From assembly GCA_903813345.2 (NCBI GenBank), contig CAIIXF020000003.1:30891248-30955247 (forward strand): 64,000 bases of DNA, given 5' to 3'. The translations under genes were made by a program, and so were the position numbers. This stretch comes from Owenia fusiformis. Taxonomy: Eukaryota; Annelida; Polychaeta; Sabellida; Oweniidae. Numbering within the stretch: position 1 is the first letter of the stretch; the number at the start of each line of letters is the position of its first letter. Shown piece after piece: positions 12,012 to 33,201 of the stretch. The notes below the pieces were generated by a model. The model made no database searches. It was not told the DNA's origin and saw only the letters and a list, made by a program, of their open reading frames with translations.

Positions 12012-12416
12012 TTATTTCATCCTACTAGATGTCCGCGGTACATACACATTCCCAGTCGTAGCTGCTGGTAAAGTAGGAGGGTATATATTGGCCTTAAGGG
12101 GATATCTCTTCCCAGCAATATCAATCTCAAACTTAGCATCTCTCATTATAAAATCATTCGTAATAAGCTCCTCTTTTTTTGTCTCCTGGTTGTAACTATG
12201 CACAAATCCCAGGCAGATGAGTTTCTCTAGTGTGTAACCATATCCACTAGATGTCACTGTTCCACAATAGTGGCCGTTCCTGTATATTGGCTCTCCCTGG
12301 AAGGGCCATGGGTCATTGTCAAGATTGTGCCCTTCAACGAGGAATTGAACTAGTTTCTTAGTTATCCCATCTTTGTGCTGCTGCTCTAGGGCTGCCTTTC
12401 CAATGAAGTCTGGTTT
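12012..12416 (-). CDS. PDPR: PDPR-like terminal exon
   Basis: 405 nt including stop. Encodes KPDFIGKAALEQQ, GEPIYRNGHYCGTVTSSGYG, LICLGFVHSYNQ, FEIDIAGKRYPLKANIYPPT and ends NVYVPRTSSRMK. The GCV_T C-terminal barrel is complete and the family-typical length is reached. Confidence 0.88.
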   Translation of the reverse strand, partial: KPDFIGKAALEQQHKDGITKKLVQFLVEGHNLDNDPWPFQGEPIYRNGHYCGTVTSSGYGYTLEKLICLGFVHSYNQETKKEELITNDFIMRDAKFEIDIAGKRYPLKANIYPPTLPAATTGNVYVPRTSSRMK

Positions 12417-15400
12417 CTGAAATAACACAAGGGAACAGTAAAACCTGTATATCCGAACACTTATCAAAATCTGAACACCTCTCAACACAAACACTTTTTT
12501 GGGCCAATGTGGCCATAGCCCTCCATCTTGTAAAAACATGGAAATATGAACACCTACCAATTGGCACACTTTTATCTGGTCATTATAGCATTTAGATAAG
12601 TATGTGGAATAAAAAACAATTCGTTGGTAGTCTGATCTGTGATTAACATTTCAAGCATAAAATTAGGATTATAAAATTAGTCAGTCAAATTTTCAGATTT
12701 AATTGACCCTTTCCATTAGTTTGATTTTGCTTCTTAAAAGAGAGCTTCACCTACCTTATAATCCTAATATAACAGGCTCTGACCCTCAGTGTTATTTAAA
12801 TCTAGTATGCACTCAATATACTGGTTGGCCCAAACGAAGGCTAACAGTTATTGAACCATCTCTTTCTGTAAACTGTAAACCTACTTTTGGGCCACCCAGT
12901 ATATATGGGAAAAGTTTGAAGCAAATTAATTTGTTAGGTCGAAATAAATATCAGCAGGGAACCCAAGAATTGTGTGTTAAAACTCCAACAATAAAATCTT
13001 TCAGACTTACATCAAGTCTGACCCTGAATTCTCTGCTACACTCCAGGGGAGTAGTATAAGGTGATAGTTCCTGTCCCCAGTATGCAAAGAACTTCTCAAT
13101 ACGCAGACACCTCAGCGCAAAGTACCCAGCATTCCTTATTCCGTAATCCTTCCCAGCAGCCATCAGTGTGTCGTACACATGTAGAGCATACTAAATGAAG
13201 ACGTTAATTGAAAATATGGATTGGAAATTATGGCCTGTAATGAATGTTGTTTTGTTATACAATTTTCATAGGCTAGGTCTTAGAAGGAATTTTATAAAAA
13301 GATGGAGTTGAAGTCAATCTCTTTTATCTTTATATTGACCTAGAATCTCTGATAATTTAACATTATATAATGTTACAATGGAATTAGTTCACTACGTTTA
13401 AACATTTGTTACAAATGGTTATTTATTCTTTATTCATTAAAATCATAATTTGAAAAATTTGAATGTGGAATCAAGAAAATGAGTTTATTTTTACCTCAGA
13501 TGGAATGTAGAGAATCCAGCCATCTTCCCCTGAATGTGTAAGTCTCATTGCTCGTATACCACTAGCATGGCCTACACTGATGATCTGAAACCAAAACGGG
13601 AAAACTAAAAGCATTTAAAGCTATTAACTGGTTGAAGACCAGACGTATACCATTATAACAGAAATTAATAAAAAGACCATTCATTAAAGCAAGCCAAAAG
13701 GGTTCAACAGAACATACTTTGCAGTTCATGGAGCTAAAGTCCTGTTTGGACATGTTCGTATCAGTCAGGTTTGACAACAGTTCTTCTGCCTTGGGACCAA
13801 TCACATTGATTGCTGTGTACATAGATGTCACGTCACCAATCTGTACAGAGCCATCTGCTGGTAGATGTTTGCGTAACCAATGCTGACTGCGGGTCTGTTG
13901 TGATGTAGAACAGATGAGGAAATAACTGGAATGAGAATATACAGAACATTCTAGAAAGCTTAGATAATGATACAAAAATTGTCTTCAAACTTTGTTTGGA
14001 TGGAAAAAAATCTAACCTCTTGAATATGTTTGAGAAACAATAAAAGGGCAACGAGGCAAATTAGAAGGTGGTGTCAAATTACTACATAAGTTGATTTTGA
14101 ACTGAAGTGCAGACATGACTTCAAAATCACCAAAAAGTCGAGTGACATTCTACATTTCCTCCAAGCTTAGAAATTATTTATATTTTTGCACATTGCGAGT
14201 ATTAATAATGTTGATTTACCTGTTTTCATGAGTTCTCAACAAACTGACATCATTCTCATATCCTCCCTGTGTATTCTGCATTCCAGTGTGGATGACTGAG
14301 CCAACTGGTTTATCAATGTCATTGGAACACACATACTGCAAGAAATCTACCACCTCTCGACCAGCAGACTGCAACATATAAAGGGAGGTTTGTTGATATG
14401 GTAAACGTGTACAAGATACAAAGATGACAAAATGTCAACACCACTTATTGGACACCCAAACACCAAATGCCGAACACTCTACACAAATAAGTTGGAGACT
14501 ATAACAATATGTCACCACTTGTTATATCAAGGGAAAGATCAATACCCGGTGATTTCAGCGGGAAGTGGCATTTCGTTCAGTGGACGAGCTGCGCGCGCAC
14601 GCATAAATGTGATTATCAATATTATTTAGGGGAGGGATATTCAAGCTTATTTTCGTCATAGGCGCGACCCAGGGCTGTTGTCTTAAGGACATTTCGTTGA
14701 AAATTAGCCATTCGGCTGATAATTTGTAAGAGTTTGCGATCTTATAATGTATAACTGTTATTCAGAAACATATTTTGACACGATTCTGTTGGAATTAAGC
14801 TTTGAACCGAGAGATATTCACGATTGATATGCACATTTTTGATTGTGCCATTGCTTTTCCATTGCACAATCCATGTATTGATAGAAGTAACAATAATGCA
14901 GATTGTTTTACCTTCAATACATGGCGGATTCACTACATATCGGTCTATTAAATACCATTTTGTGCCCTAAATAGTTTTATATTTCCATCACGGCCTGGAG
15001 CCTGGGTGTGTTTGTCTCTATGTGTATGCGTGTGAATATTGGTGGGGCTGGTAGGGCCACCAATCCCCTGGCCCCGCCCATCCTTTATTCTACTTCCCAC
15101 TTATTATAATTTATGCTGTAACATTTAGACTTCGCTGGAAAACAGTAGGAATTATTTTTCTTGCCAATCAATCGTGAATCACAATCAAAATTTCAGAAAG
15201 GATCAATCAGGCAATCGTCCAAAATCCAAATCAAGTTATAACATTATATGATATTCAGCAAGAAGTCCGGAAGAAATATAGAATATTTAAACATCAAAGC
15301 TGAAAGTTAAAAGCTAATCTGTCAATTTTCTGTCTGCAAAAGAACGTTTACATTTGACACAATAAAAGACCGAGGCTTTGAAATCTAGGATTCCCCAGGA

Positions 15401-18400
15401 AAATATGACGTCATACTAATTAGCATAAGGATTTCCCTAGTGGTCTGGGTCGTGCATCGTCCGAAAACACAATCCGATAAATACATGCTAATTTCTAAGG
15501 AGATGGGAAGTGTATGACGTGTTTATCGATTTTGTTTAACGATTTAATCAATTATCAAATTGTTTAAGTGGATAAAGTGGTCACACTTGCTTCAATTCAT
15601 AGCGTAATCGACGGATAGAAACTGCACCGAATTCCCGATATCCTACCCCGTATTATGTAGGCTATAACCACAGTGACCTGCAGATGGCGCTATCACAAAC
15701 AAGTACTGCACGAACCGATAAATTCCCGGGTATTGTAACGCCCTTGGTTATATGGCTATAAATGGGAATTGCGAACAATGGAAAATGGTATGATTATCAA
15801 ACCAAAAAGGTTAGATGATAACTGATCAACTAAATCTATTCATCATTCACATTCATAGGAACTTTTGTTGTCTTTCATTTGATCTGAAGCAATTTGGCCA
15901 CCAGGTAGTGAAATTGGTAAATACCCACTGGCACAGATTATTGGAATTGCGCATTATTGAAACAGGGTAACTACTAAACTATAAATATGATCAAATTTTG
16001 GCATGGGTTTTGCATGTAACACGAGTACTAGCTTATTTTTCATAGATTTGGTATCTTGAAAGTCACAAAAATAATCTATGAATTCATGTACTTACTTTTA
16101 ATTCAAGTTTTGTAAAGGAAGACATATCAATTAGACAGACACCTTCTCTGCATGCCCAGTACTCAGATCTGCAATAAATTCATTATACAGTAAGTTGTTT
16201 CGTTCCATGTACAGTAAAAGCTGCAAATAGAACACCTTTGGAATCTCCTAAAAGTGTTCCATTTATATGGTGTTCATTTAACATTAAATGAATGGGTCGT
16301 GGGATTCTGAAGTGTTCCACTTACAAAGGTGTTCTACTTACAATGGTGTTCCACTTACAGAAGTGTTCCAATTACAAAGGTGTTCCACTTAAAAAGGTGT
16401 TCCACTAACAGAGGTGTTTCATCTGACAGTTTTTACTTTACAGTAGTACACAACAGATACTTTTGTAAGATATCCTGACTAATTTCACATTATTCATTAT
16501 GCTAGCCTGACTCATATTATAATTTTTTTCAGGAATTGCTTTTTCAACCTTTTCACCAAATTGAAATAATTTACTACGATCCATTAACACTTTCCACCTC
16601 CCTACCAGCTTGCAATAAATATAACAAGGCATTAATATGCAAAATGTCACAACCTGCCATTTGGTACAGACATCGATGGCCAAATGTGAAATGATAACTA
16701 CGGAATGCTGTCTACTGTCTACAAAAAAGTTGGAGACTATAACAATATGTCACCACTTCTGGTGGTGACATAAAAATATGAAGTTCAGTTGCAATACCTG
16801 ACTATATCAAAGTAGGCTGGCTTATGCCAAATGTACCAGGTGTGTTTATGTGGCTTATTGCATCTTGACATTATAAATATGAAGTTCAGTTGCAATACCT
16901 GACTATATCAAAGTAGACTGGCTTGCCAAATGTACCAGGTGTGTTTATGTGGCTTATTGCATCTTGACATTATAAATATGAAGTTCAGTTGCAACACCTG
17001 ACTATATCAAAGTAGGCTGGCTTGCCAAATGTACCAGGTGGGTTTATGTGGCTTATTGCATCTTGACATTATAAATATGAAGTTCAGTTGCAATACCTGA
17101 CTATATCAAAGTAGGCTGGCTTGCCAAATGTACCAGGTGGGTTTATGTGGCTTATTGCATCTTGACATTATAAATATGAAGTTCAGTTGCAATACCTGAC
17201 TATATCAAAGTAGGCTGGCTTGCCAAATGTACCAGGTGGGTTTATGTGGCTTATTGCATCTTGACATTATAAATATGAAGTTCACTTGCAATACCTGACT
17301 ATATCAAAGTAGGCTGGCTTGCCAAATGTACCAGGTGGGTTTATGTGGCTTATTGCATCTTGGTCGGGATCATCTATAACACAAAAACGATTCCATGTTA
17401 TTCTTCTCAGTATATTGGTGGGATTATACAGTCCAGTGAAACCAGTAAAGTGGCATATTTTTGTTACCTCTAAAAGTGTTCCATCTGGCAGGTGTTCCAT
17501 TTATAAAGATCCATTTAACATTAAGTCAGTTGGTCAGGTTGACTAACAGAGGTGTTCCACTTCTGTATCTGTTCCACTTTACAGGTTTCACTGTATGTAC
17601 AAAGTAATTATTAGAACTGTAATATGGTTCTTTATTTTAATGTACTAATTCAATCAAATGAAAGATATCTTAATTTAATTATCGTATTTAATCTAGTTTT
17701 TCATGCTTTGTCTTCAGCGCATACAAAATCTATTCGTGTTCATAAACTATCGATAAAGTTAAAATAAATAATGTTTGTGTTTTTACAAACTAGAAACAAA
17801 TCTATCATGCATTAAAATATATTAGCTTACAACAAAAGTATGTGCCATTTTAAAGGGGTACATACTTATACATACATATTATACTATATACTATATATAT
17901 ATGTATATTGCAAGCAAGCAAATTAGCTGACAGAAGTAAAATGGATTTGATTCTATTTTTGTTGCTTATGATAGGAATAGAAACTGTAGAATTTCACTTT
18001 TATCAAGTCTTATCAAGACACTTAATCTATAAAGTGACATGAGAGTGCAAGTTGTCATTTAATTTACAATAAGCATATCAAATAAAATTAAATTAAAAAT
18101 AAGAGCATCTAAAATATTCATATATGTTGTAAATAGATTTCCTAAGAATATGAGTTAAAACATCAAAACAGTAAGCCCCATCAACTTATTACTATGTGAG
18201 CATTTATAAACATTGAAGTTCACAAAAAATAATGTATCAAAGTTTGGCAGTGGGGCCCTTTAAGTTACTTTAGATGAACTTTTAATCATTAATTCATTTG
18301 AAACAATCAGCAAATTAAATTACAGGACAATTAATAATAAAAATGAATAATGCAACATGTCTGAACATAGAAAATGTGAAAATTAAATCAGACGAAAAAA

Positions 18401-21400
18401 ATCAATTTATCGGCATTTTATTTTCGAAAAGTACATGATTACTGTTCAACCAAAGTGAAGGTGTTAGTATTTTAACCTATAGTTGATAGAAACACTTTGT
18501 CACAATATTTCATAATGATGAGTCAAACAATAATTATCCCAATTAACATTATAATCAATTACTCATAAAGTAAACAATCAGACAGATCAAATAAAAATAA
18601 TGTAGCAATGAAAGATCAAAGTGAGATTTGCAAGCCCTAAAGTGTAAGAAATATGCTAAAGTCAAAAAGCCCATCAAAAAATATGTTCAGTTTTTGAGAT
18701 TTATTAATTTGATAATCGGTTTACTTGCTATTTACTTCCGAGTGATTGATTCAATGTATCTATGTTCCATTTGTTTATTAAAATGATGTTTATACAATAT
18801 CAGATGTATAATCAACGACGTAATACTAATGACAGATTGTAGATATCAATTTATTATAAATCTTTAAATGCCATTTAAATTAATTCGTAATAGTTGATAT
18901 ATGATACCTAGAGGTTTGTTTAAGTAATTTATGACTCAGATTGATAAATGTTCACAATGATCTTTCAGTTGTTGAAAAATTATTATTCATATCGCTATAT
19001 GCTAATTTTCGTTACAGTCGGGTCTATTCTGTTGCTAATGAATCGCAAAAACATTAATACCACAGAAAGTATCACAAGGCTCAAAAAGCAAGAATTCATG
19101 GATACGGAACTGACTTCAACATCAAAAACCATGAAGATAAAAGAGCTCAGATGTGAACCCTGGGAAAATGAAGATTACAATCGAGTAATTGGCTATGGGC
19201 TTGATAATTATGTCAAACTCACAGAATTCCCAACAGAACATTGCTCAGATAATTCTTTATGTGGTGCTCGTCTTGACAACTCTATTGAGCCAATCAGATT
19301 TCGTGATGATTTACCGGTAGATGCTTGCTTAGACCCAGAGATTTGTGTGACAGTGATTTGTAAAACAGCGACTCGTCTTAATTTTGCACAGAAACTCGTA
19401 GCATCTATTTGGAGATTATACCCTCGTATATTTATCATAATTGTCGGAGACCGGAATAACAAATACACAAATGACCATATTTGGTATAAAACTGTGCTCA
19501 GCAACAGACATCGATTACTTTACATACAGGAGAATTCGACTGTGGGAATTAGCGCTGGGAGAAACAGAGCGCTTCAATTAGTCAAAACCAAATATTTCTT
19601 TTTAACAGACGATGACATTATTCCTGCTACAAAAAGTTCTTATAACCTCACAGATATGTTGTATTTAATGCAGATAAGTGACTTTGATATAATTGGTGGA
19701 AGTTATTCCCCGCATATATTTACTGGAATTTGGCACGCTGCCAATAGTAACCAAACAATGAATTCAATAGATGGCGCTGTAAGCTCAAATGCCAAGAAAG
19801 GTTTCGTTAATCTCTTCCACTATACTAAATATCATTACGCAAAGTTATCCTGTTTTGAATCATGTTACCACACGGATGCTACATTAAATATATTTCTCGC
19901 GAAAACTGCTGACATCATCAATATCTCAGGTTGGGACTGCAAATTCAAGATGGACCAAGAACATTTAGATTTTTTCCTTAGGGCAAAGATTGCGCGTCTG
20001 AAAGTCGGCATCTGTTATGATTTCCTGTTCGACCATATATCAAGCTCAACAAATGTTGTACATTTAAGACGTTTACAGTTGAAACCATACTTTGAACATC
20101 TATTTTTAGAAAAATGGAATATCACATATGTTTATTCCTTTGGGAGACTCCAACGGAAAAAGAGAGTTGTATTATCAAGGTTTAGTGATAACAAATATGT
20201 TTAATATAATCAACAATTTGAGACCATATGGTGGACTTACATAGACTCTTATTTTGTCATTTTGATGGGCATTTGGTTATTCAAGGATCCTTGTTGATTC
20301 ATATATTGACTCATCTACTCAATATTTCTCTTGTCAATTAGTATACAGATACATAATTATTAATTAACCTCTTGACTACCCAGAGGGACAAGATTTCTCT
20401 GTCACAAAATTTTTCACTAAAAGTGCTCAATTTTTTTCTAACTGAGCATCACCTGTTGTATATGTATGTAGTAAAATGTCAAAGACTGGCAAAAATGAAA
20501 AAATTCCCTGGTTTCAAACCAATTTTAGAAGCTGGGATTCAAGAGGTTAAGCTTTTTGAGATTATCATGATTTCTTACTTTGCCCATTGAAAATTAATTA
20601 ATGAGGACTGGAATATCTACAAATCTAAGATATTATTTGGAATTGAGAAAGATGTTTGAAAAAATGAAACTTTTTCAAAATAATTCAAAAATGAAAGATG
20701 TTCCACAACACATAACATGTAACAGTAACCATTAAAAAACAATAAAAGAAGCTAATTTTAATCTATACAATCACCAGTGTTACGCTTCCCAAAAAATAGT
20801 GCTCTTTCAAAGCCCATAATTTCACCGAATGTTGCCCCAGCCTTCTGGAATCTTGGGTATATGGTGGAATGTCGCAAGTTGCGGGCATATTGATACTCAA
20901 CGTTGGGGTAGTCCACTTTATAATGTCTCCCTGGGTGCAAGCAAAAAGCAAAGATTCAATCAACACAAGCATTAGGCAGAAATACATTAAGGTAGCCAAA
21001 GTAGAGTGACTAATCTAACTAATTCATTTGAACCTTTTACAAGTTGGTTCATACATTGTCACAAAAAGCCCACCTTAATTAATGCAAGCTCATTCACGCT
21101 GGCTATGACCAACGCAATCCAACAAATTATGTTATTAACAGCAAGCATAAAGTATATGTATTGGACTGCGTTCGGTAAACCCAGTTTGTTTATGGACTTA
21201 AAATACAGTGCAGGTTAACACAGATATCTATGTGTAATATTATATATCAGATGAACATATAGATAATGTTGACTAGTACTGCAGCATTAATTTCTTGTTC
21301 CACAAAAACAGAGCCTTCAATTTAAACTGTGTAAAATACTGTAGTAATTTCAATGTGTAGAACAATTACTTAAAATTGGTAATTTAGGTCAGTTAGTCTT

Positions 21401-24400
21401 ATGAAGGCTCTGTTAATATGCAACTTACAATATAAGAAAAGTAAAACCTATGTACAGCGAATCCTGTCTTTTACACTACTCAGACTTGTTCAACTGTTCA
21501 AAGAGAGGTGTTTATATTTACAACGAACTAATTGGATCTCATATATCTCATTTATGCCTGGGTCACATTTGCTCCGATCCATCGACCGGCGTCGAACCAT
21601 TGAGTGTTTTGTTCAATATCGTATTCAATTTTGAACAAAATACTCAATCCCCCGGGCGCCGTAGTCAAAATCGGAGCAAATGTGACCAAGGCATTAGATG
21701 AAGAAAGTTCTGAACATTTTGAGGTTGTCACAACAGAGAGGTTTTCACATACAGAGGTTTTACTGTATATAGTATATAACAGGGTGGCCCAAAAGGAGGT
21801 TTATAGTTTACAGAATGAATTGTTGAATTACTGTAAACCTACTTTTGGGTCAACCAGTATATTAGGGGATTCAACAACTATCTATAGGGGATGGTATATT
21901 CTCGGGTACAGGGGGGGGTACCTTCCCCATCAGCTTGTTTCCTCTGAAAGTACATGCCCCTCTCATATCCATTCCTCTCCCCAAAGACAGCCTTGGCTTC
22001 CTGTAGACGTGGGTAGAGGGGGGTGAGGCCGATAGCCCTAGAGGTTTGGAATTCCTCACGTGGATAGCGGAGAGTGTACATAGCCCCTATATGTTAAATA
22101 TTACATGCAATAATGGAAATATTCTGACTATTCATGCGTTAAGAAACTACCTATAGCTAAACATGCACGAGTACACAAGTCGCAAATGAATCAGTGCTGT
22201 TTAAAATCAGTACAGTTTCAAAATTGATATTGTAAAACTCAAAAAGTGGTTCTTTTTCATCTACAGTGGTTCATTTCATAATTTAGTATTTTATCATCCA
22301 GGAGTGGCACTCTTTTATCCTAAACAATACTTTTTCATCCTCAGCACTGACTTATTGGCAAATGAAACTAGACAGGTCTGGTCATCACCAAAATATGCCA
22401 AAATAAACTGTCAGATCACATATATAGGAGTTTTGCTTGCCCTGGAGAAATTCTGATCAAATATCAGTGATTTTTGGTCACTTCATATTAGTACAAATAA
22501 ACTAAAACATGCAGCTTGCTGAAATAAGTTATGACTGTTATTTGATTCCATCCAGAAAGCATGAATCCTCTGCCTAGCAACACCCTAGCAACACCATAGC
22601 AACTCCCTAGTAACGCTCTAGTTATCACATGCCTGTAATCCAATGAGTATGGAACCGAGGAAAATATAAAGCTCGCTCAAATCCTACAACTTCCTGGAAG
22701 ACCGCCCCTGCAGCTTGGGTTCGTGGGAACACTGGGGTGACTCGCACATTGCGTGCTGTTTTGAAGTCATAGAATGGCAAGTTGGGTATACGATAGAAAG
22801 AAGCACCTAAACAAAAATAAAATCATTTTTATTTACTACATATTTGACTCACATTGCAGCTTGAAAGATAATTCACACATACAGACTGTAGCTAGGTATG
22901 ATATACATGTATCACATTCCAACCAATTAGAACACAGTATACATTTAATATGTGTCTTGTATGCCAGCCTTTGAATTTAGTTGGTCAGGTTCCTCCCTCA
23001 TTCAAAGTCTTATACAGGACATTGTGCATAAAATCATCCACAATTCATTGAGCACTGAGCTTAAATCCTTTAAAACTTCATACTATTACATTTGTATTTC
23101 TTGTACTAAGTTTTTTTAACTGAAATAAATATTGGTATTGGCCTAATATTGACTTCATACTTCTACCAATAGAATTATGTATATGATTAATATAAGATGA
23201 ACGTCTAGACAAAATTGGGAACAAAAAAAGACAAACATCAAGTTACATTTTAAGAGCAAAATAACTGCATATTTTATTAAATGGAACAAAGGTTGTTTCA
23301 TGAAAGTACATTTAATTCAATGAATGACAATATTATTTAAAATTATGATTACAGTTATTGGTTCTTTTATCATTCTTGTTAACATGACTACATAAATCCA
23401 TTATTTTGTTGTACAATAAGAACTACATACCTAAAGTTTCTCTGACCCTATCACGCAGGTATTTCTTGTTGTTATGGAGATCAACAAAACGTCTGATATC
23501 AACTGACCAGAGATCAACGCTTGGACTGCCATCTATAATCCACTCTGCCATGTGACGGCCAACACCTCCAGCACTAGCAATGCCAATAGATGTCATACCT
23601 GCCGCCACAAAATAGTTGTTGATCTGGAACGAATTTTTGTTATTTCAAAATATATCTTACAATAATTGCATTTAATTTCCATTTTTCTCATTTTTTTACA
23701 ACTTTACAAGTTGTTTGTTAAAACATTTTTCAAACTAATAAAATATTAGGATTCCAAATATTGCCCCCTGTGTAACACCACTATAATATCACTATATTGC
23801 TCTCACCTCTGGTGCCTCACCCAGGATGTATTTACAATCAGGTGTAAAACTCTCTGGTCCATTGAACAACTGACGAATCTCTGCTGTTTGAATAGATGGA
23901 ATTCTGTGTAGGATCTGCTCAAGTAGCACCTCTGAAATATACATTATACATATTATGAGGTTATATAATGGTTCATTCTGTATATCGTGTTTATACTCGA
24001 GTGAGTATATGATATATTCACAAGTGAGCGTAGCGAACGAGTGAATATATTATATTCTCACGAGAGTATAAAATGCACGATATACAGAATGAATCATTAT
24101 ATAATCTTATTATGCCACGCTAAGTTCAACTACAGTTGATTCGAACACAATCATAACGATTAAAAACCATAAAAATATCCCATAGCCAACTCAATAATGC
24201 CGATGTTGATCTCGAACCATTTATGACGTCACTTGATTCTAGGAAATCATGCCGGAACCATTTAAGACGTCACTTGATTCTAGGAAATCATGAAAATTTT
24301 GGAGCGTCGGAACTCCTCATTCGCTCCGCTCATTCGAGGGACACAACAGTCTGTGTAACAAAACATACACGTTGTTCTTCGCTCTATATTCATTAGTTCC

Positions 24401-25479
24401 CAGAATGCACTTCTACAGTGGTATACGCTGGAGTGTATACGGTGGAGTGTATACGATGACGATATACCACTCTCCACTATATATCGTTGTTATAGACCCA
24501 AGTTATACAACTGTAATTTGACTTAGAGTGGTATAAATGGTAATACACCTGAAAAATACATTATACATATATGGTCATATACCTGAAATATATATTACAC
24601 ATATATAGCCATATACATGGAGTATAAAATATAATATAAACATTACAAATTTGGGATATTGTTCATTGTTCTCTTTTGTATCCATGGTTGGAAAAATTGA
24701 TTTAGGAATTTTAAACTTTATAGAAATTCAGTTACCAGAAAGACTTGAACACATTGTACAAGATTTGTCAAGACATTGAGAGTGAACTTACGGAAATGGT
24801 CCCAGTCCTCAGGTAGCTGACCAAACTCAAATTTGTCTGGGATGCCATTATGGAAGACTGGTTTAGCTACGGGTTCAAATCCTCCGGCCATGATGCCTCC
24901 ACTCCACTCACGGAAGTATGTGTACCCATCATGGTCTCTGATCACTACATATACAATATTGTACCATAATAATTAACTGATTAACCAAAGAATACATTGC
25001 TCCAGTAAAATTTTTAATGATATACTTGCATCAATGGTGAATATTTATGTCAAGGTCACATCATTTATTTGAGTCTGATCATAAGCAGATTTTCAAGTTT
25101 CATTTGACCTATTTTAGATGAGACGGAGGTCAACCTGCTTTTGACCAGTGATAGGGGAAATCTGGGTACTTGTGATCCCTAATCAGCCTGAATTGATTTT
25201 AATTCACAACAATCTGTACCTTGCATTATACAGACTTTGGCACAAATCCTCTTTTTAGAAAATATCAAAGTTTGAAGTTTGAAAGTTTGCTTCCCCTGTA
25301 TAGTATATGAGATTGATTTTTTTTACCTGGCGTCATCCTGTCAACACCAAAAGGTTTAGTGACAAGGTAGTAGTGTTCTGTAGAGTGTAAAGGAACCCTC
25401 ACCCTCGGGTTACTTTTCTTCCCCAGACTTCTTGCCCATTGGCCAGCGCAGTTTACAAAGTATTCACATTGTATAGTAC
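12012..25479 (-). CDS. PDPR: pyruvate dehydrogenase phosphatase regulatory subunit-like (PDPR), 3' part
   Basis: Exons in transcript order: 25327-25479, 24792-24944, 23807-23931, 23431-23623, then homologous exons A 22633-22806, B 21922-22086, C 20775-20930, then 17295-17373, 16096-16168, 14220-14368, 13718-13925, 13495-13584, 13011-13190, 12012-12416. With one of A/B/C they join in frame to about 654 codons. The order of domains is the C-terminal half of an FAD-dependent oxidoreductase fold (NCAGQWAR, HYYLVTKPFG, GGFEP), the FAO central region, then the aminomethyltransferase-like GCV_T region (PPGTFGKP, CREGVCLIDMSSF, GIRNAGYFALRCLRIEKF). Related families are sarcosine and dimethylglycine dehydrogenases; details of the C-terminus fit PDPR best. 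PDPR acts in the mitochondrial matrix on pyruvate dehydrogenase phosphatase. About 225 N-terminal residues with the dinucleotide-binding motif are not found in the window. Confidence 0.85.
12433..12570. repeat. fragment of the ACAGTAAAACCTG...GAACACC repeat
   Basis: In the last PDPR intron, ACAGTAAAACCTGTATATCC is followed by GAACAC, CTGAACACCTCT and ATATGAACACCTACC. It is related to the repeat at 8475 and to 16208-16442. Only one end is clear. Confidence 0.5.
12817..12904. mobile_element. short MITE, TATACTGGTTGGCCCAAA ends (copy 1)
   Basis: About 88 bp with ends TATACTGGTTGGCCCAAACG and the complement of ACTTTTGGGCCACCCAGTAT; internal GTAAACTGTAAAC. A second copy is at 21775-21862. The TA flanks and size fit a mariner-type MITE. 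Confidence 0.65.
13011..13190 (-). CDS. PDPR: PDPR-like exon
   Basis: Phase 0-0, 180 nt. Encodes YALHVYDTLMAAGKDYGIRN, then AGYFALRCLRIEKFFAYWG and TTPLECSREFRVRLD. Donor GTAAGT. Confidence 0.88.
13495..13584 (-). CDS. PDPR: PDPR-like exon
   Basis: Phase 0-0, 90 nt. Encodes IISVGHASGIRAMRLTHSGE and DGWILYIPSE, the conserved TGEPG-like turn region (here HSGEDG). Confidence 0.85.
13718..13925 (-). CDS. PDPR: PDPR-like exon
   Basis: Phase 2 to 0, 208 nt. Encodes YFLICSTSQQTRSQHWLRKH and TSMYTAINVIGPKAEELLS, the folate-type barrel of the GCV_T domain. Donor GTATGT. Confidence 0.85.
14220..14368 (-). CDS. PDPR: PDPR-like exon
   Basis: Phase 0 to 2, 149 nt. Encodes SAGREVVDFLQYVCSNDID, GSVIHTGMQNTQGGYENDVS and LLRTHEN. 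Acceptor TTGCAG, donor GTAAAT. Confidence 0.85.
14369..16095. other. PDPR intron, nothing seen
   Basis: No exon with matching phase and no clear repeat. A GCGCGCGCAC stretch near 14591 and a CCCCTGGCCCCGCCC stretch near 15064 are the only GC-rich patches. Confidence 0.4.
16096..16168 (-). CDS. PDPR: PDPR-like exon
   Basis: Phase 2 to 0, 73 nt. Encodes SEYWACREGVCLIDMSSFTK and LELK, the start of the GCV_T-like region. Donor GTAAGT. Confidence 0.85.
16208..16442. mobile_element. foldback of the ACAGTAAAA...GAACACC family inside PDPR intron
   Basis: Left end TACAGTAAAAGCTGCAAATA followed by GAACACC; right end GTTTTTACTTTACAGTA. The interior has at least six copies of AAAGGTGTTCCACTTACA-like units. 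A half copy, GTGTTCCATCTGGCAGGTG to GGTTTCACTGTA, lies beyond the exon array at 17476-17595. The exon array may therefore have expanded between two such elements. Confidence 0.55.
16791..17373 (-). repeat. 99-bp tandem array derived from a PDPR coding exon (6 units)
   Basis: Units start at about 16791, 16892, 16991, 17090, 17189 and 17288, spacing 101, 99, 99, 99, 99. The last is the genuine exon. Each extra copy holds codons for AISHINxPGTFGKPxYFDIV plus the GT donor and about 20 bases of intron. The extra copies lack the true acceptor, but end upstream in GTCAAG/ATGCA, an AG in the same phase as the real exon. The unit at 16791 has a 2-base insertion that shifts the frame; the others stay open. 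Substitutions Pro to Thr and Ala to Val occur in the most distal copies. Confidence 0.9.
17295..17373 (-). CDS. PDPR: PDPR-like exon (parent of the 99-bp array)
   Basis: Phase 1 to 2, 79 nt. Encodes DPDQDAISHINPPGTFGKPA and YFDIV, highly characteristic of PDPR/sarcosine dehydrogenase relatives. Acceptor GTTATAG, donor AG/GTATTG. Five partial copies follow it downstream in the transcript. Confidence 0.85.
17596..18947. other. PDPR intron / upstream of nested gene, nothing seen
   Basis: AT-rich. It must contain the promoter of the nested + strand glycosyltransferase gene, but no distinctive element is recognisable. Confidence 0.35.
18948..20204 (+). CDS. GT12-type beta-1,4-N-acetylgalactosaminyltransferase-like protein, intronless
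   Basis: 418 codons, one exon. Residues about 17-31 (YMLIFVTVGSILLL) form a type II signal anchor, so a Golgi location is expected. The catalytic domain starts near residue 132 (ICVTVICKTATR) and has IWRLYPRIFIIIVGD, GISAGRNRALQLVKTKYFFL and the DDD motif at 221-223. These are followed by FDIIGGSY, CYHTDATLNIFLAKT, DQEHLDFFLRA and a late DH (362-363). This order matches GM2 synthase-like and related N-acetylgalactosaminyltransferases, which add GalNAc from UDP-GalNAc to glycans. The acceptor substrate cannot be deduced. The gene lies inside a PDPR intron on the opposite strand. The lack of introns suggests an old retrocopy or a lineage-specific intronless family. Confidence 0.82.
   Translation: MFTMIFQLLKNYYSYRYMLIFVTVGSILLLMNRKNINTTESITRLKKQEFMDTELTSTSKTMKIKELRCEPWENEDYNRVIGYGLDNYVKLTEFPTEHCSDNSLCGARLDNSIEPIRFRDDLPVDACLDPEICVTVICKTATRLNFAQKLVASIWRLYPRIFIIIVGDRNNKYTNDHIWYKTVLSNRHRLLYIQENSTVGISAGRNRALQLVKTKYFFLTDDDIIPATKSSYNLTDMLYLMQISDFDIIGGSYSPHIFTGIWHAANSNQTMNSIDGAVSSNAKKGFVNLFHYTKYHYAKLSCFESCYHTDATLNIFLAKTADIINISGWDCKFKMDQEHLDFFLRAKIARLKVGICYDFLFDHISSSTNVVHLRRLQLKPYFEHLFLEKWNITYVYSFGRLQRKKRVVLSRFSDNKYV
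20775..20930 (-). CDS. PDPR: PDPR-like alternative exon C
   Basis: Phase 1-1, 156 nt. Core NVEYQYARNLRHSTIYPRFQ then AGATFGEIMGFERALFF. Acceptor TGCACCCAG, donor CTG/GTGATT. It is the exon nearest to the downstream constitutive exon, about 3.4 kb away. Confidence 0.75.
21552..21696. mobile_element. MITE with ATGCCTGGGTCACATTTGC termini (copy 2)
   Basis: About 145 bp. Ends ATGCCTGGGTCACATTTGCT and complement of GCAAATGTGACCAAGGCATT. Interior AATTTTGAACAAAATACTCA and CGGGCGCCGTAGT are shared with the copy at 3661. Confidence 0.75.
21775..21862. mobile_element. short MITE, AGGGTGGCCCAAAAGGAGG ends (copy 2)
   Basis: Inverted ends GGGTGGCCCAAAAGGAGGTT and the complement of ACCTACTTTTGGGTCAACCA. 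Same family as 12817-12904. It lies about 60 bases from the donor of exon B. Confidence 0.6.
21922..22086 (-). CDS. PDPR: PDPR-like alternative exon B
   Basis: Phase 1-1, 165 nt. Core REEFQTSRAIGLTPLYPRLQ then AKAVFGERNGYERGMYF. Acceptor CATATAG, donor GAAG/GTACCC. The least conserved of the three at the motif preceding YER, where RNGYER replaces the usual hydrophobic-Gly-aromatic-ER. Confidence 0.7.
22633..22806 (-). CDS. PDPR: PDPR-like alternative exon A
   Basis: Phase 1-1, 174 nt, 57 codons plus split codon. Core FYDFKTARNVRVTPVFPRTQ then AGAVFQEVVGFERALYF. The acceptor is TTGTTTAG. The only donor in the right phase is a GC site, ACAG/GCATGT; the GT dinucleotides nearby are in phase 2 and a stop follows. 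Homologous to exons B and C. Confidence 0.7.
23431..23623 (-). CDS. PDPR: PDPR-like exon (constitutive exon before the A/B/C cluster)
   Basis: Phase 0 to 1, 193 nt. Encodes NNYFVAAGMTSIGIASAGG with the Gly-rich FAD contact region, then RHMAEWIIDG and DIRRF. Its phase 1 donor (GTATGT) is compatible with each of the three following homologous exons. Confidence 0.85.
23807..23931 (-). CDS. PDPR: PDPR-like exon
   Basis: Phase 1 to 0, 125 nt. Encodes VLLEQILHRIP, then LFNGPESFTPDCKYILGEAP, the conserved GPESFTPD segment of the family. Confidence 0.85.
23962..24106. repeat. long palindromic foldback, ATATAATGGTTCATTCTG arms
   Basis: Arms TTATATAATGGTTCATTCTG and complement of CAGAATGAATCATTATATAA, followed inward by TATATCGTG/CACGATATA and TATACTCGAGTGAG/CTCACGAGAGTATA. 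The centre is GTGAGCGTAGCGAACGAGTG. It lies in a PDPR intron. A smaller relative with TGGAGTGTATACG and ACGATATACC is at 24418-24490. Confidence 0.7.
24792..24944 (-). CDS. PDPR: PDPR-like exon
   Basis: Phase 1-1, 153 nt. Encodes IRDHDGYTYFREWSGGIMAG and FEPVAKPVFHNGIPDKFEFG, ending in EDWDHF. Donor GTAAGT. Confidence 0.85.
25327..25479 (-). CDS. PDPR: PDPR-like exon (first visible)
   Basis: Phase 1 at both ends, 153 nt. Encodes EYFVNCAGQWARSLG and HSTEHYYLVTKPFGVDRMTP, the conserved FAD-oxidoreductase segment. Acceptor TTTTCAG, donor GTAAAA. Confidence 0.85.
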
Positions 25480-27611: not shown

Positions 27612-27921
27612 TGTAGCATCTGGATATAGTACTATTTCTGAGGATATATTCAAAAATGCATTTCAATATATGTAAATAAATTTAAACATGATTTAACTGA
27701 TTTTAATTCTATTTGCGAATTTCACATTCTGCCTCTGGCTGAAAAAGCAACAAATAAAAGTGTCCTTATAAGAATTCATACAGACAGATCTGACATCTTT
27801 AATTGTGAGCAATCTTGAAATAAATCTTGATTCTAAAAGATCACTTAAATTCTATCAAAACATTGCCTAATTCCAGAAAGAAGACCGATTCATCCATACA
27901 GATTATAGACAAGAAGTAGCC

Positions 27922-28846
27922 ATGTCTTCCAGTGAAGATGAAACACACCTTATGCGAAGTCTCCATGACTTCAATGAATGTGTTTTCAAAGAGAAAATAC
28001 CCCAGAATGCAGGAGACATTGATCCTATAGTATGGGACCTGAAAAAAGTCCTTGAGAATCACAAGGCAAATATCAATGTCAAAGATGCAACAGGACTTGC
28101 CCCATTAATGTATTTTATACAAGAACTGTGTATCAGAGAAGGCGATGTTCCGGAGATATGGTATCTTATAGAAGCAATCAAACTCCTTATTGCATTTGGT
28201 GCCGATATTAATACTACTGATGAAAATGGCTTCTCTCCATTGATCTACCTCAGGGCATTCAAAGGAAGGGACCATGTAGTTATAGATGTCATTACACTTT
28301 TTGTAAATCTAGGTGCAGAAGAAGATATGAATAGACACATTACTTATTGTGTCATTCATGCATCTATATCCATGGAAACAGTGCATGTATCCATGGAGAC
28401 AAGCATTGAAAACATAAGTGATATCTCTATGATAACCTTCCATGAGAGCATGGAGATATCCATAGCAACAACATCTAGCTCATCTATGGACACAACAAAT
28501 GTTTTCTATTCCCTCGAAAGAACTGCTGAAGGTGACAAAATTAAAGTGGACCAGATAGTACATGTGGTTGAAACTGTTGCCAGGAAAATTGTTCATGAGA
28601 CACTATCAAGTTTCAACACTTGCACTGACACTATTGCAGTAAATGGAACAGAAAACTTACAGACTGGAATCCTTGCAACTCAAGACTCCACAAGTGAGCT
28701 TTTAAAAGAATCAGATCAACTAGATACTGCTAACAGTGAAGTTCCAAAAACAACCACTGCTCAGAGTGTGGGCACAAACAAAGATGCAAATACTGATAAG
28801 GCTTCCACAGTAGGAGCAGATACTAAGAGAACAAGAAAAACAGCAT
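27922..28846 (+). CDS. ankyrin/death gene, exon 1
   Basis: ATG in GCCATGTC context at 27922. 925 nt, ends phase 1 at donor GTAAGT. Ankyrin repeats and the linker. Confidence 0.75.
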
Positions 28847-30153
28847 GTAAGTCAATTTCAAAATTCAATTTCAAATAAATTTGAAAATTTCATAATAAAC
28901 ATATACAAGCATTAACAATAACATAAACATGTATTTTCCAGGTATGTTTATCATTTCAAATAATGAAAAAATATTGTGAATTGCAGATGGATCCATGAAT
29001 AAACTGTACACCAAACTCTCCCCACAGATGGGTAATTCCAGTTACACAATTTTTATCAACCTTGGTGTAACCTCAGGAGAATATGAGACATCACAAAACA
29101 ACTATCCTCATGATGCAAACAGTAGAAATATCAACCTGCTAACAATATGGGACAAGAAGCAATCCAAAGACATTGATAAGTGTAAATTATTAGCTGAAGC
29201 ATTGCAGAAATCTGACAGAGCAGACCTTGCAGATATGGTTTGGTGAGTAATAATATAACTCTATGAGTTAAAACTCAGTTTACCTGCTAACACATCCTCC
29301 TAAGCAGGTATCCAGAATCCATACCTCCTTCTTCCCCCTGCTATAACCAATTTGGCAGCGCCCGATTAAACTGAATCACATGATCTTATTATGCGCAATG
29401 ACTTATACATGATTTCTGTCGCAGTGTTCCGACAACCAATCAGATTGCGAGTTCTTAATCGTGGAAATGCTAACTGCTTATCGCAGTGAAGCCCTATGAT
29501 CGGAGGTTGTGGTAACATTATTATCTGAAATGTCTAGCTATATACAAGTAAACCCTTGCTGAAAAGATTAACAACTTATCTTCTTATACTAGTCTGTCAT
29601 TAAATAAAATGGCTACTTTAAAGTTGCAATCCTACTGAGGGATGGCCCAAATGAGGTGTTAGATATAGCATAGTCTAACAAGGCAAACACATAAACTGTA
29701 TCTAACAACTGGTTTTGAAACCCTAAATATGACACTCTCTATTTTGTTTCCAGGGATGCTGATATATCTGAGGGTACACAAGAATCAAAACCCCAGAAGA
29801 GAATAGTCATATCAGAAAATGCTGACAACCAATCCAAATATGATGAAGACAGTATCCCTAAGAAAAAACCAAAGCTTGATGACTCCAAAGCTAGTACATG
29901 TACTGCAACTTTAAATATAACACTATCTTACAACATTGAATCTATGGACTCTGGATTCAACTCTTCAACATCAAGAAAGAGAGGAAGATCAAATGAATCA
30001 AATGAATTAGACTCAACTCTGTGCTTTGATGCAACATTAGACTTGAGAAACATCCCAGTGGAGAGAAGGCCCAGCTCAATTCCTAACAAGAAACGGAGAT
30101 TTGATAATGACCAGCATGATTATGGTGATGGAGATGTTACACTAAAGAACTAG
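27922..30153 (+). CDS. ankyrin-repeat / death-like-domain protein with basic tail
   Basis: Exons 27922-28846, 28987-29242 and 29754-30153 join in frame (phases 1 and 2) to 526 residues. Residues about 45-145 carry two to three degenerate ankyrin repeats (NVKDATGLAPLMYF, LLIAFGADINTTDENGFSPL). A Ser/Met/Glu-rich repetitive stretch follows (SMETVHVSMETSIENISDIS). Exon 2 holds an approximately 80-residue helical domain (LYTKLSPQMGNSSYTIFINL, then NLLTIWDKK and KLLAEALQKSDRADLADMV) that resembles death-fold domains. The last exon is polar and basic with PKKKPKLDD and NKKRRFDND, possible nuclear localisation signals. Death-fold plus ankyrin proteins usually act as adaptors in innate immune or cell-death signalling; here that is inference. 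AATAAA at 30306. Confidence 0.72.
28987..29242 (+). CDS. ankyrin/death gene, exon 2 (death-like domain)
   Basis: Acceptor TTGCAG, 256 nt, phase 1 to 2, donor GTGAGT. It is homologous to exon 37840-38092 of the neighbouring gene in sequence, phase and length. Confidence 0.75.
29754..30153 (+). CDS. ankyrin/death gene, exon 3
   Basis: Acceptor TTTCCAG; frame DADISEGTQESKPQKR onward to TAG at 30151. Polar, with several basic clusters. Confidence 0.7.
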
Positions 30154-30305
30154 ATGGATAGCAGTTTTCAAGCATTTGTTCAGTGCATTTTCCCTTCTCT
30201 GTAGATGTTTGATTCAGTTTTCTTCAGGATCCAAACAATTTAGGGAAATTAAATGAAATGATTTCAAGTATCTGCAGATGTAAGGAAGGATAAATAAGTG
30301 CACTG

Positions 30306-30311
30306 AATAAA
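30306..30311 (+). promoter_or_regulatory. poly(A) signal candidate
   Basis: AATAAA about 150 bases after the stop of the ankyrin/death gene. Confidence 0.5.
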
Positions 30312-30407
30312 GCTTTGAAACTGGATGACACATCTATTGATTATTCAATAGATTGTACCCAAGATAGAAATACAACTCTTGGATACAATCCACTGAGAAA
30401 GAGAAGT

Positions 30408-31500
30408 ATAGTTTTGTAAATAAACTAGCATAGCTTGCTTAAAATAGTACCATTGCTTGTATCAAATACACTGTATGTGTGTAGGCTACACTTGTCAAAT
30501 GGTCAAATCAAGCACAGGCGCCAAGTAATGGTCAAATCAAATACAAGTGACAATTAAAACACAATGTATGCAGCTCATAAAAACTTGAATTTGATCATTT
30601 ATCATATACACTGAGTCATACAATGTTACAGCATATATTGGACAAATACTCCGGCTTACATTTTTCTTTATGTTAGATGCTGTTTGGCAGAGCAGGATGG
30701 CAAATCTCAATAAAGGAAAAGGACTCTGTGTATTAACATATACACATTATAGTCAAGGTAAGAATGTAAATTAACAGTACATTTATACAATCATATTGAA
30801 ATCTCTGAATAATGCCTTTACTTCTTTGCACTGCTTATGGGTTAATATAACAAATAGCATTTAAACATTTCTAAATGCTTAATATGAAAAATATTGACAC
30901 CTTTCCTCTTTGCTGAAGACAAAAAGAAGAGTCTCAATTCTAAACAAAACAAGTTATTCATTTTAACTTGAATGTTTTTTGTTATTTCTACTTTAAGGTC
31001 TTCATGATCGGTTGATGTCTGAGTTTGATGAGACCTGTGTCTACACAACAGCTGAGTGTTATAGCCTCATTGACTCATGGTTACCTCAGATGCTGGGTTT
31101 AACATAACAAGGCAATGTGTAAATATACATTCTGGAGTAAAAACATTGAACCATCGACAGTGTCAGTGAAATATATAGACTTATAGACTATAATCCACAT
31201 GAATTTGATATGTGTTCATTTAGAATTTATGAGTTTGTGTTTCACAATGTAAATCCCACACTAGGCAACTTGTCCATGCAAGTAAAACGATTTGCCAATC
31301 TCCACTTCATAGGTGCATTCAGGTGTAACAGAGGCACACCTTGGCACAGAGTGGGTGGACCCCCTAATTTTCACATACATGAACTAGCAAGTTTGATATG
31401 TGTTGTTTTAGGTTGGGTTCCTGGATTTGGAGATTCTCAAACATGTACCTGTACGTTGAGGCGTTTTTTAAATGAGAGCTTACAAAAGCTAAAATTAGAT
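30408..31500 (+). repeat. segmental duplication, copy 1
   Basis: Starts TATAGTTTTGTAAATAAACT. It is repeated as 38553-38653 plus 55061-55920, the two halves being separated by the retrotransposon. The duplication includes the two-exon unit below and following noncoding sequence (CACTTCATAGGTGCATTCAG, GGTTGGGTTCCTGGATTTGG). Confidence 0.8.
30677..31107 (+). CDS. unrecognised gene, last two exons (copy 1)
   Basis: Exons 30677-30757 (phase 1-1, acceptor ATGTTAG, donor GTAAGA) and 30998-31107 (acceptor TTTAAG, stop TAA). Joined protein: AVWQSRMANLNKGKGLCVLT, YTHYSQG, LHDRLMSEFDETCVYTTAEC and YSLIDSWLPQMLGLT. I do not recognise the family. The paralogous copy at 55 kb keeps exon sites, and most differences in the first exon are silent or conservative, so this was once or still is coding. 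Upstream exons are not identified. Because phase 1 acceptors are shared, it could be an alternative 3' end of the death-domain gene. Confidence 0.5.
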
Positions 31501-31507
31501 ATCAAAT

Positions 31508-32628
31508 TGTAAGGAAATAATTTCTATAAAGTTTCATTTTTTGCTATGAGGCTCGATTGAGGACACAAATGCATACAAATGGACACAAAGCATACTTTAA
31601 AAATATGTATAAATGCAAATAAGAAATAAATCATACGGTACCGTATACTATATATACATATGATATGAATACAACTGTATACACTGTACATCTATTATTG
31701 TCTACATTGCATATGCGAGAATTGAAATTAATTAATTTTTTGTCATTGCTGCTATACAAAAATTTAAGATACTCTTTATTAAAAACATTGCCTAATATAT
31801 CTTATCAAGGTAACCTTGGCCCAGTCTATTTGGCATTTACAAAAAACTGCTGAAAATATTGTACCTTTTTAGGTACGATAAAAACCATAAACCACAAAAT
31901 ACACTTAAATAAGTTGGCATTACCTCAATCAACTTCTCATTACCAAGGATTCTATTGTTGTCTTCAAGTTCGATATCTACAAATGAATTGGTGACATACT
32001 TAACAAAATAATGTCAATACAGAAACTGATGACGTATTTCACAAAATGATATCAGTCATTCAAAAGGAAAGTAATATACTTTTATAAGCTTTGGTCAAAA
32101 TACAAGTAAAGTATTATTGTAAATAAGGTATTAAACTGTTCATTTTGTAAGAGATTTGTATCAACATGTCATCTATTATTCATATTAGTTTTACTTCACA
32201 TATGAGATGGTAATCATCAATTGCTCTCATTTATAATGAAATAATGTATGCTCCTTATAATTTCCCCGGACTATTTTGGCGCCTTTTTAGAGGTTCAATC
32301 AATCAGATTTAATGACTGGAGAAAACCCAATGGAGAAACTCTTGGTAAGAATTTATCCCATTATTTTGTAGTATTTTTAATTAACATAATAACCCCTATA
32401 CAGCTTAATTACATTCATATTCATCAAGTAGATATTATAAGCTTCATATGCATATAAGTTATTAGATATTTTGATAGAAGTATTAACTTGAAATTATAAT
32501 CTTAGAAACTTGTCAACTTTTTTATTTTGTAAACAGACATTTTACATTTTGGGTATTACTTCATTGAGGTACATCTTTGAGATAGCATGAATGCATAATA
32601 TTATAAACAACACAACACTTGTGGCATA
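31508..32628. other. mostly empty; one weak minus-strand exon candidate at 31924-31976
   Basis: AT-rich. On the minus strand TTTGTAG/ATATCGAAC to GAG/GTAATG bounds a 53-nt frame reading IELEDNNRILGNEKLIE. Nothing ties it to a gene, so it is not annotated as CDS. Confidence 0.25.
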
Positions 32629-33201
32629 TCAAAAATTCAAATCTAAATTCAAATCTAAATTCAAAACAACATTTGTTGTGTCCAAAAATGAGCTAGATGT
32701 TGTTGCTATGGATATCTCCATGCTCTCATGGAAGGTTATCATAGAGATATCACTTATGTTTTCAATGCTTGTCTCCATGGATTCATGCACTGTTTCCATG
32801 GATATAGATGCATGAATGACACAATAAGTAATGTGTCTATCCATTTCTTCTTCTGCGCCTAGATTTACAAAAAGTGTAATGACATCTTTAACTACATGGT
32901 CCCTTCCTTTGAATGCCCTGAGGTAGATCAATGGAGAGAAGCCATTTTCATCAGTAGCATTAATATCAGCACCAAATGCAATAAGGAGTTTGATTGCTTC
33001 TAAAAGATACCATATCTCCGGAACATCGCCTTCCCTAATACACAATTCTCGTGTAAAATGCATTAATGGGGCCAGCCCAGTTGCATCTTTGACATTGATA
33101 TTTGCCTTGGGAGGCTCAAGGACTTTTTTTAGGTCCCATACTATAGGATCAATGTCTCCTCCATACTTGGGTATTTTCTCTTTAAAAGAAAAATTCATCA
33201 A
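32629..33201 (-). pseudogene. inverted partial copy of the ankyrin exon
   Basis: A 190-codon open frame on the minus strand, nearly identical over about 170 residues to residues 22-195 of the ankyrin/death protein (FKEKIPKYGGDIDPIVWDLK, LLIAFGADINATDENGFSPL). It lacks the first 20 residues and replaces the exon end by a repeated NLDLNLDLN tail from a simple repeat before the stop. No death-like exon follows it on that strand. The open frame points to a recent duplication or retained selection. Confidence 0.65.

Follow-up and report, generated by a model that had tools for sequence, protein, structure and literature searches.

The question raised by the locus considered here is whether one gene may supply several forms of PDPR, the regulatory subunit of pyruvate dehydrogenase phosphatase (the enzyme that turns pyruvate oxidation back on), by choosing among homologous exons. 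The analysed stretch, hereafter the window, comprises 64,000 nucleotides (64 kb) of the Owenia fusiformis genome (assembly GCA_903813345.2, contig CAIIXF020000003.1, denoted C3, positions 30,891,248 to 30,955,247), and its minus strand carries exons of a PDPR-type gene. Three of them, designated A, B and C, lie in a row between one common upstream and one common downstream exon and encode the same protein segment. In our estimate they probably form a cluster of tandem alternative coding exons, of which one is normally included per transcript, giving three isoforms.

Three homologous exons at a domain junction

Exon A (22633..22806, 174 nt, 58 codons), exon B (21922..22086, 165 nt, 55 codons) and exon C (20775..20930, 156 nt, 52 codons), all located on the minus strand, correspond to variant segments 1, 2 and 3. 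In the frame set by the upstream exon none of them contains a stop codon; each possesses an AG acceptor and is bounded by phases 1-1, the donor being GT in B and C and GC in A. The common upstream exon (23431..23623, minus strand), which encodes the start of FAO_M and ends in phase 1, and the common downstream exon (17295..17373, minus strand), which begins in phase 1 and ends in phase 2, join to A, B or C alike, and no stop is encountered until the end of the last exon. Homology of the three was detected by tblastn within the window, with E-values depending on search direction of 2e-11 and 3e-11 for the pair A-C, 2.5e-10 in both directions for A-B, and 3e-10 and 6e-10 for B-C. The coordinates, lengths, homology and phases ascribed to these exons in a preliminary description of this DNA were all borne out by tblastn and by the frame model.

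Further copies of the segment are lacking both in the window, where the next matches to A, B and C have E-values of 0.8, 2.4 and 2.6, respectively, and in the flanking stretches of C3, where none was found at E ≤0.1. The same description placed one upstream and one downstream exon around the cluster, while conceding that the three copies might belong to separate tandem genes with flanking exons of their own. In the window and the C3 flanks a single example of each flanking exon was detected, minisatellite units apart, so that separate tandem genes are rejected over this region. An assembly duplicate or an allele was likewise rejected, because nucleotide identity over the aligned parts of A, B and C is only 48-55%. 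Nor does duplication of exons appear as a habit of the PDPR gene: 1 of its 11 other exons in the window (17295-17373) has copies at E ≤0.05, and all of these are units of a 99-bp minisatellite rather than products of an old duplication.

The minisatellite itself (16766-17362) consists of six copies of 97% likeness. Its first unit is formed by most of exon 17295-17373 with the donor, and the other units repeat the 3′ part of this exon and the donor but are devoid of the original acceptor.

The contribution of A, B and C to the protein can be estimated from domain matches. The FAO_M score of 47.8 bits obtained for the form with all three exons skipped rises to 56.8 with A, 67.4 with B and 76.7 with C, and with any one of them the match also extends further. 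For GCV_T the skipped form gives 19.9 bits and thus falls below the cut-off of 25.6 bits, while the isoforms with A (29.6), B (32.2) or C (31.2) all exceed it. Since each exon improves both matches, the three may be regarded as alternative versions of the segment closing FAO_M and opening GCV_T. The segment had previously been called "FAO-type", which is right for the end of FAO_M but incomplete, as the first part of GCV_T is included too. In two related genes of the same genome, located on C6 and C7, the stretches examined contain the segment once per gene, interrupted in both cases by an intron, and therefore it does not constitute a serial unit in these relatives.

Constraint on the copies and proposed choice of one exon

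In local alignments spanning 41-49 codons, pairwise identity of A, B and C amounts to 40-49% for protein, and by codon position it equals 0.49-0.57 at the first, 0.62-0.71 at the second and 0.26-0.49 at the third. Neutral drift to equal nucleotide identity, simulated from any of the copies, leaves a mean protein identity of 19-27%. Without realignment, a procedure favouring the observed value, 1 of 24,000 simulated sequences (6 series of 4,000) was open and at the observed identity; repetition with realignment (6 series of 2,000) gave the same outcome, as 0 of 12,000 were open and attained the alignment score of the real exons, which 1 of 12,000 attained when stops were allowed. Similarity that no open neutral simulation with realignment could match argues that the copies are old and have been kept as protein. 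Compared with a human PDPR sequence (a provisional reference), A is identical at 18 of 40 positions, B at 21 of 45 and C at 17 of 44 (39-47%), which is near the low end of the range, 43-68%, found for the other PDPR exons of the window. As the mutual distance of the three is about the same as their distance to vertebrate PDPR, it may be supposed that the duplications are old or that the exons have evolved rapidly, with selection acting on the protein.

A number of observations weigh against the exchange of three working exons, and the first group of them concerns the state of the exons themselves. The donor of A is GC instead of GT (CAG/GCATGT, the slash marking the splice site), a feature passed over in the preliminary description. 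Ranked by U1 pairing energy among 18 donors, B is 11th (10th with corrected e1), C 15th and A 17th, so that all three belong to the weaker half; in this ranking exon e1, situated outside the window, has the 9-mer of e13 when read correctly, and the donor of the N-terminal exon e4 was left out. Matches to the donor consensus number 7 of 9 in A and C and 5 of 9 in B. Eight positions do not vary among the provisional human PDPR, the genes on C6 and C7 and dimethylglycine dehydrogenase (chain 5l46); of these, 6 are retained in A, 6 in B and 7 in C, and the proline following the E-R/Q pair is absent from all three alike. In a tree of seven sequences the branch of A (1.10) exceeds those of B (0.47) and C (0.69), which, given the support of 52-68 around the exons, is a hint only. 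Finally, the simulations were run under a single base composition and transition bias and are blind to recent loss. Weakness of the donors was also considered as a proof of alternative use and rejected as such.

These features might be accounted for if one of the three, with B or C the likeliest, were constitutive, with the other copies being dying relics spliced rarely or never. Exon A, with its GC donor, lowest FAO_M score and longest branch, would be the natural candidate for such a relic, its branch on the weakly supported tree leaving room for a recent loss, and the incomplete set of invariant positions extends the suspicion to all three. On the other hand, frames and both splice sites are intact in every copy, protein similarity is far above the neutral expectation for each pair and each exon raises both domain matches; only a recent loss of function would slip past the constraint tests. 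We consider this explanation unlikely, and alternative use of A, B and C appears to be the best reading of the cluster.

A separate question is whether the alternative use is exclusive, and here the second group of unfavourable observations belongs. Not only A, B or C alone but also A+B, B+C, A+B+C and the form with none of them are in frame; clearance of frame-shifted products therefore cannot enforce exclusivity, and enforcement of this kind does not hold for the double, triple or skipped forms of the PDPR cluster. By comparison, the exons of the homologous pair in the coq-2 gene of the same genome (see below), being 131 and 134 nt long, would shift the frame upon skipping or double inclusion. 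The introns between the copies, 546 and 991 nt, impose no steric block to double inclusion. Complementarity of docking and selector elements, suggested earlier as a check, gave no signal above shuffled sequences: in three layouts the observed smallest stem was reached by 71, 91 and 15 of 100 shuffles and the observed sum by 50, 42 and 40 of 100, the scan being limited to ungapped stems in a single genome and covering 1 kb at either end of the last intron (3.4 kb).

The intron between B and C contains two inverted repeats (21548-21701 and 21774-21862, 76% and 74% self-complementary, respectively), which we would guess to be short transposon remnants and not elements of splicing.

Published criteria for candidate mutually exclusive exons (MXE) comprise homology, the same frame and a length difference of up to 20 amino acids (PMC5740500). 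Exons A, B and C conform to all of them, with E-values from 2e-11 to 6e-10, phases 1-1 and 58, 55 and 52 codons; they also share single flanking exons, partial minisatellite copies of the downstream one apart. The layout was initially taken for a hallmark of mutually exclusive splicing, and this stands as far as candidacy is concerned but is too strong as a diagnosis, since many highly similar neighbouring exons are not spliced exclusively; conversely, some MXEs lack homology, which is usual but not universal among them (PMC5740500). One should thus consider that A, B and C are cassette exons, included in twos, threes or not at all, with repeated or missing linkers as a result. The in-frame status of A+B, B+C, A+B+C and skipped forms, the permissive introns and the frequent non-exclusivity of similar neighbours (PMC5740500) are all compatible with such a scheme. 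It is opposed by the nature of the segment, which spans a domain junction and was met only once per gene in the two relatives examined; skipping puts GCV_T under its cut-off, and a second copy would presumably add about 55 residues between two domains. Inclusion in varying number is accordingly judged improbable. It is on this protein argument that exclusivity rests, and we infer from it that one exon is chosen per transcript.

One more possibility follows from the in-frame stop seen by eye within approximately 50 nt past each donor: if the donor were read through, A, B or C might serve as an alternative last exon and yield a truncated PDPR without the GCV_T half. Introns produce early stops by chance, however, and the phase match of three donors to one downstream exon would be needless for a terminal exon, so that we attach hardly any probability to this variant.

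Under the preferred reading, the exchange of one exon for another, a single member of the cluster would be spliced between 23431-23623 and 17295-17373. The three resulting isoforms would differ only in 52-58 residues linking the flavin-oxidoreductase half to the aminomethyltransferase-like (folate-type) half. The choice, perhaps dictated by tissue or oxygen supply, might then tune the restraint that PDPR exerts on the catalytic subunit of the phosphatase, with trans-acting splicing factors, as a guess, selecting the exon.

The PDPR-type gene, its relatives and its surroundings

The gene extends over about 70 kb of the minus strand, with its N-terminal exons beyond the 64 kb window, and besides A, B and C the window accommodates 11 PDPR exons. 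They were placed with the aid of the provisional human PDPR sequence, which served as a lead only, and settled afterwards from splice sites and frame. All of them lie on the minus strand. Upstream of the cluster, the splice and frame model gives exons 25327..25479, 24792..24944 and 23807..23931 in addition to the common exon 23431..23623, the earlier DAO exons being outside the window (flanking stretches L002 and L003). Downstream of exon 17295..17373, matches to the provisional PDPR combined with splice sites and frame define exons 16096..16168, 14220..14368, 13718..13925 and 13495..13584 of the GCV_T part, exon 13011..13190 of the aminomethyltransferase-like half and the last coding exon 12012..12416, which contains the stop codon.

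No N-terminal DAO exons were found inside the 64 kb window, and a truncated gene or pseudogene had to be considered. This was ruled out by a DAO match at C3:30975728 on the same strand as the PDPR gene and by the remaining N-terminal exons present in the flanking stretches, so that all domain parts of PDPR are represented over the 70 kb; one of the N-terminal exons was identified by eye only, and neither the start codon nor the boundaries of exon 1 were placed.

DAO, FAO_M and GCV_T parts follow one another in the order typical of PDPR. Exons of the window are 39-68% identical to the provisional human sequence, while identity to the C6 and C7 genes is 25-47% over matched pieces, a rough comparison since the stretches differ. 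Domain order and closer similarity to PDPR than to these relatives identify the gene, judging by its predicted product, as one of PDPR type, in line with its original designation as PDPR-like. A genome search with a PDPR piece of 512 amino acids (isoform B) returned 20 matches, of which 15 belong to the present locus (C3), 2 to C6 and 3 to C7; a second PDPR gene was not seen in this search, although a missing match does not prove absence. Among solved structures, dimethylglycine dehydrogenase (5l46, E 1e-57) comes closest to this piece. To the same chain the C7 gene shows matches of 48-72% in the best three of its exon pieces and is therefore DMGDH-like, and the C6 gene, by inference, is a putative SARDH.

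In the DMGDH-like gene (L006, 3446-3752, on C7) short tandem copies of an exon 3′ end with its donor were noticed by eye, represented by units of EPMYDLIECDPNRYSKWTDR type. Together with the 99-bp array of the PDPR gene this makes donor-carrying repeats of exon ends in two related genes, which may be due to chance or to a habit of this genome.

Introns of the PDPR gene appear to host other coding sequences. The intron following exon C contains on the plus strand (18948-20204) an intronless open reading frame of 418 amino acids with similarity to glycosyl transferase family 2 (E 3.5e-6), a nested gene whose possible origin by retroposition is a guess. Another intron includes the region 27900-33200, where a plus-strand gene (approximately 27.9-30.1 kb) and its partial inverted copy on the minus strand (approximately 32.6-33.2 kb) were distinguished by eye; that this gene carries ankyrin-type repeats is a guess.

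Comparison with known duplicated exons

The closest yardstick is found in the same genome. Its coq-2 gene possesses a homologous exon pair (L007, 2090-2220 and 5720-5853, on C2) with 49% protein identity and identities of 0.58, 0.77 and 0.44 at the three codon positions, the e-form coming first. By eye, the first exon has Leu and Ser and the second Phe and Ala (motifs TLNWG/TFNWG and YSHQ/YAHQ), as in the published 6e and 6a forms, which are marked by Leu/Ser and Phe/Ala, respectively (PMC7434440). A published exclusive pair is thus accompanied in one genome by predicted variants A, B and C of like divergence. Since the exclusive coq-2 pair has been reported only from rhodoquinone-making animals, namely helminths, annelids and molluscs (PMC7434440), the animal probably belongs to a rhodoquinone-type, hypoxia-tolerant lineage, for which coq-2 gives an indirect hint. 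A search of the assembly for mitochondrial COX1 yielded no match.

In coq-2 6a/6e as in the PDPR cluster, a gene of mitochondrial metabolism carries internal exons that are homologous to one another, and the swap in coq-2 alters the enzyme (PMC7434440). The two systems differ in the number of exons, two in coq-2 and three in PDPR, and in that exclusivity of the former is founded on RNA data and its function on C. elegans mutants (PMC7434440), whereas the latter is predicted from sequence. As a bolder extension of this parallel, to which we assign little probability, a hypoxia-tolerant invertebrate of rhodoquinone type would control entry into the citric acid cycle through a choice among three PDPR exons, the linkers defining the point of pyruvate dehydrogenase reactivation for each tissue or oxygen state.

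No report linking PDPR to exclusive or duplicated exons turned up among the titles and abstracts of openly available papers, a search on the regulation of helminth pyruvate dehydrogenase brought up unrelated work, and the term PDPR does not occur in the main text of PMC9741552; the preliminary description knew of none either. Exchange of duplicated exons being a known phenomenon, PDPR would probably be a new instance of it. The function of PDPR has been called poorly understood (PMC12146199). A natural three-way swap of one piece, if true, would point to the part of the protein that sets control, which could be probed by an assay of the isoforms.

Collections of tandem duplicated exon substitutions and predicted MXEs (PMC9741552, PMC5740500) include sets resembling the PDPR cluster in homology, frame, similar length and single flanking exons; they are based on annotation, transcripts or proteomics, and the cluster described here on the genomic sequence. 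Among individual genes, alternative oxidase of the oyster Crassostrea virginica shares with PDPR a tandem duplicated exon (exon 10) in a mitochondrial gene, and the choice of its isoform responds to air exposure (PMC5589949), although in this case a different enzyme is concerned and the duplication, in two copies, affects the 3′ (last) exon (PMC5589949). Closest in metabolic terms are exons 4a and 4b of vertebrate OGDH, which are duplicated, exclusive and belong to a component of a 2-oxo-acid dehydrogenase system (PMC7969005). Their choice sets calcium sensitivity, but OGDH differs from PDPR as an E1 subunit with two such exons, the exclusivity of which is enforced by distant branch points (PMC7969005). 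If the exchange proposed for A, B and C is true, pyruvate entry would join coq-2, alternative oxidase and OGDH among the steps tuned by exchange of duplicated exons.

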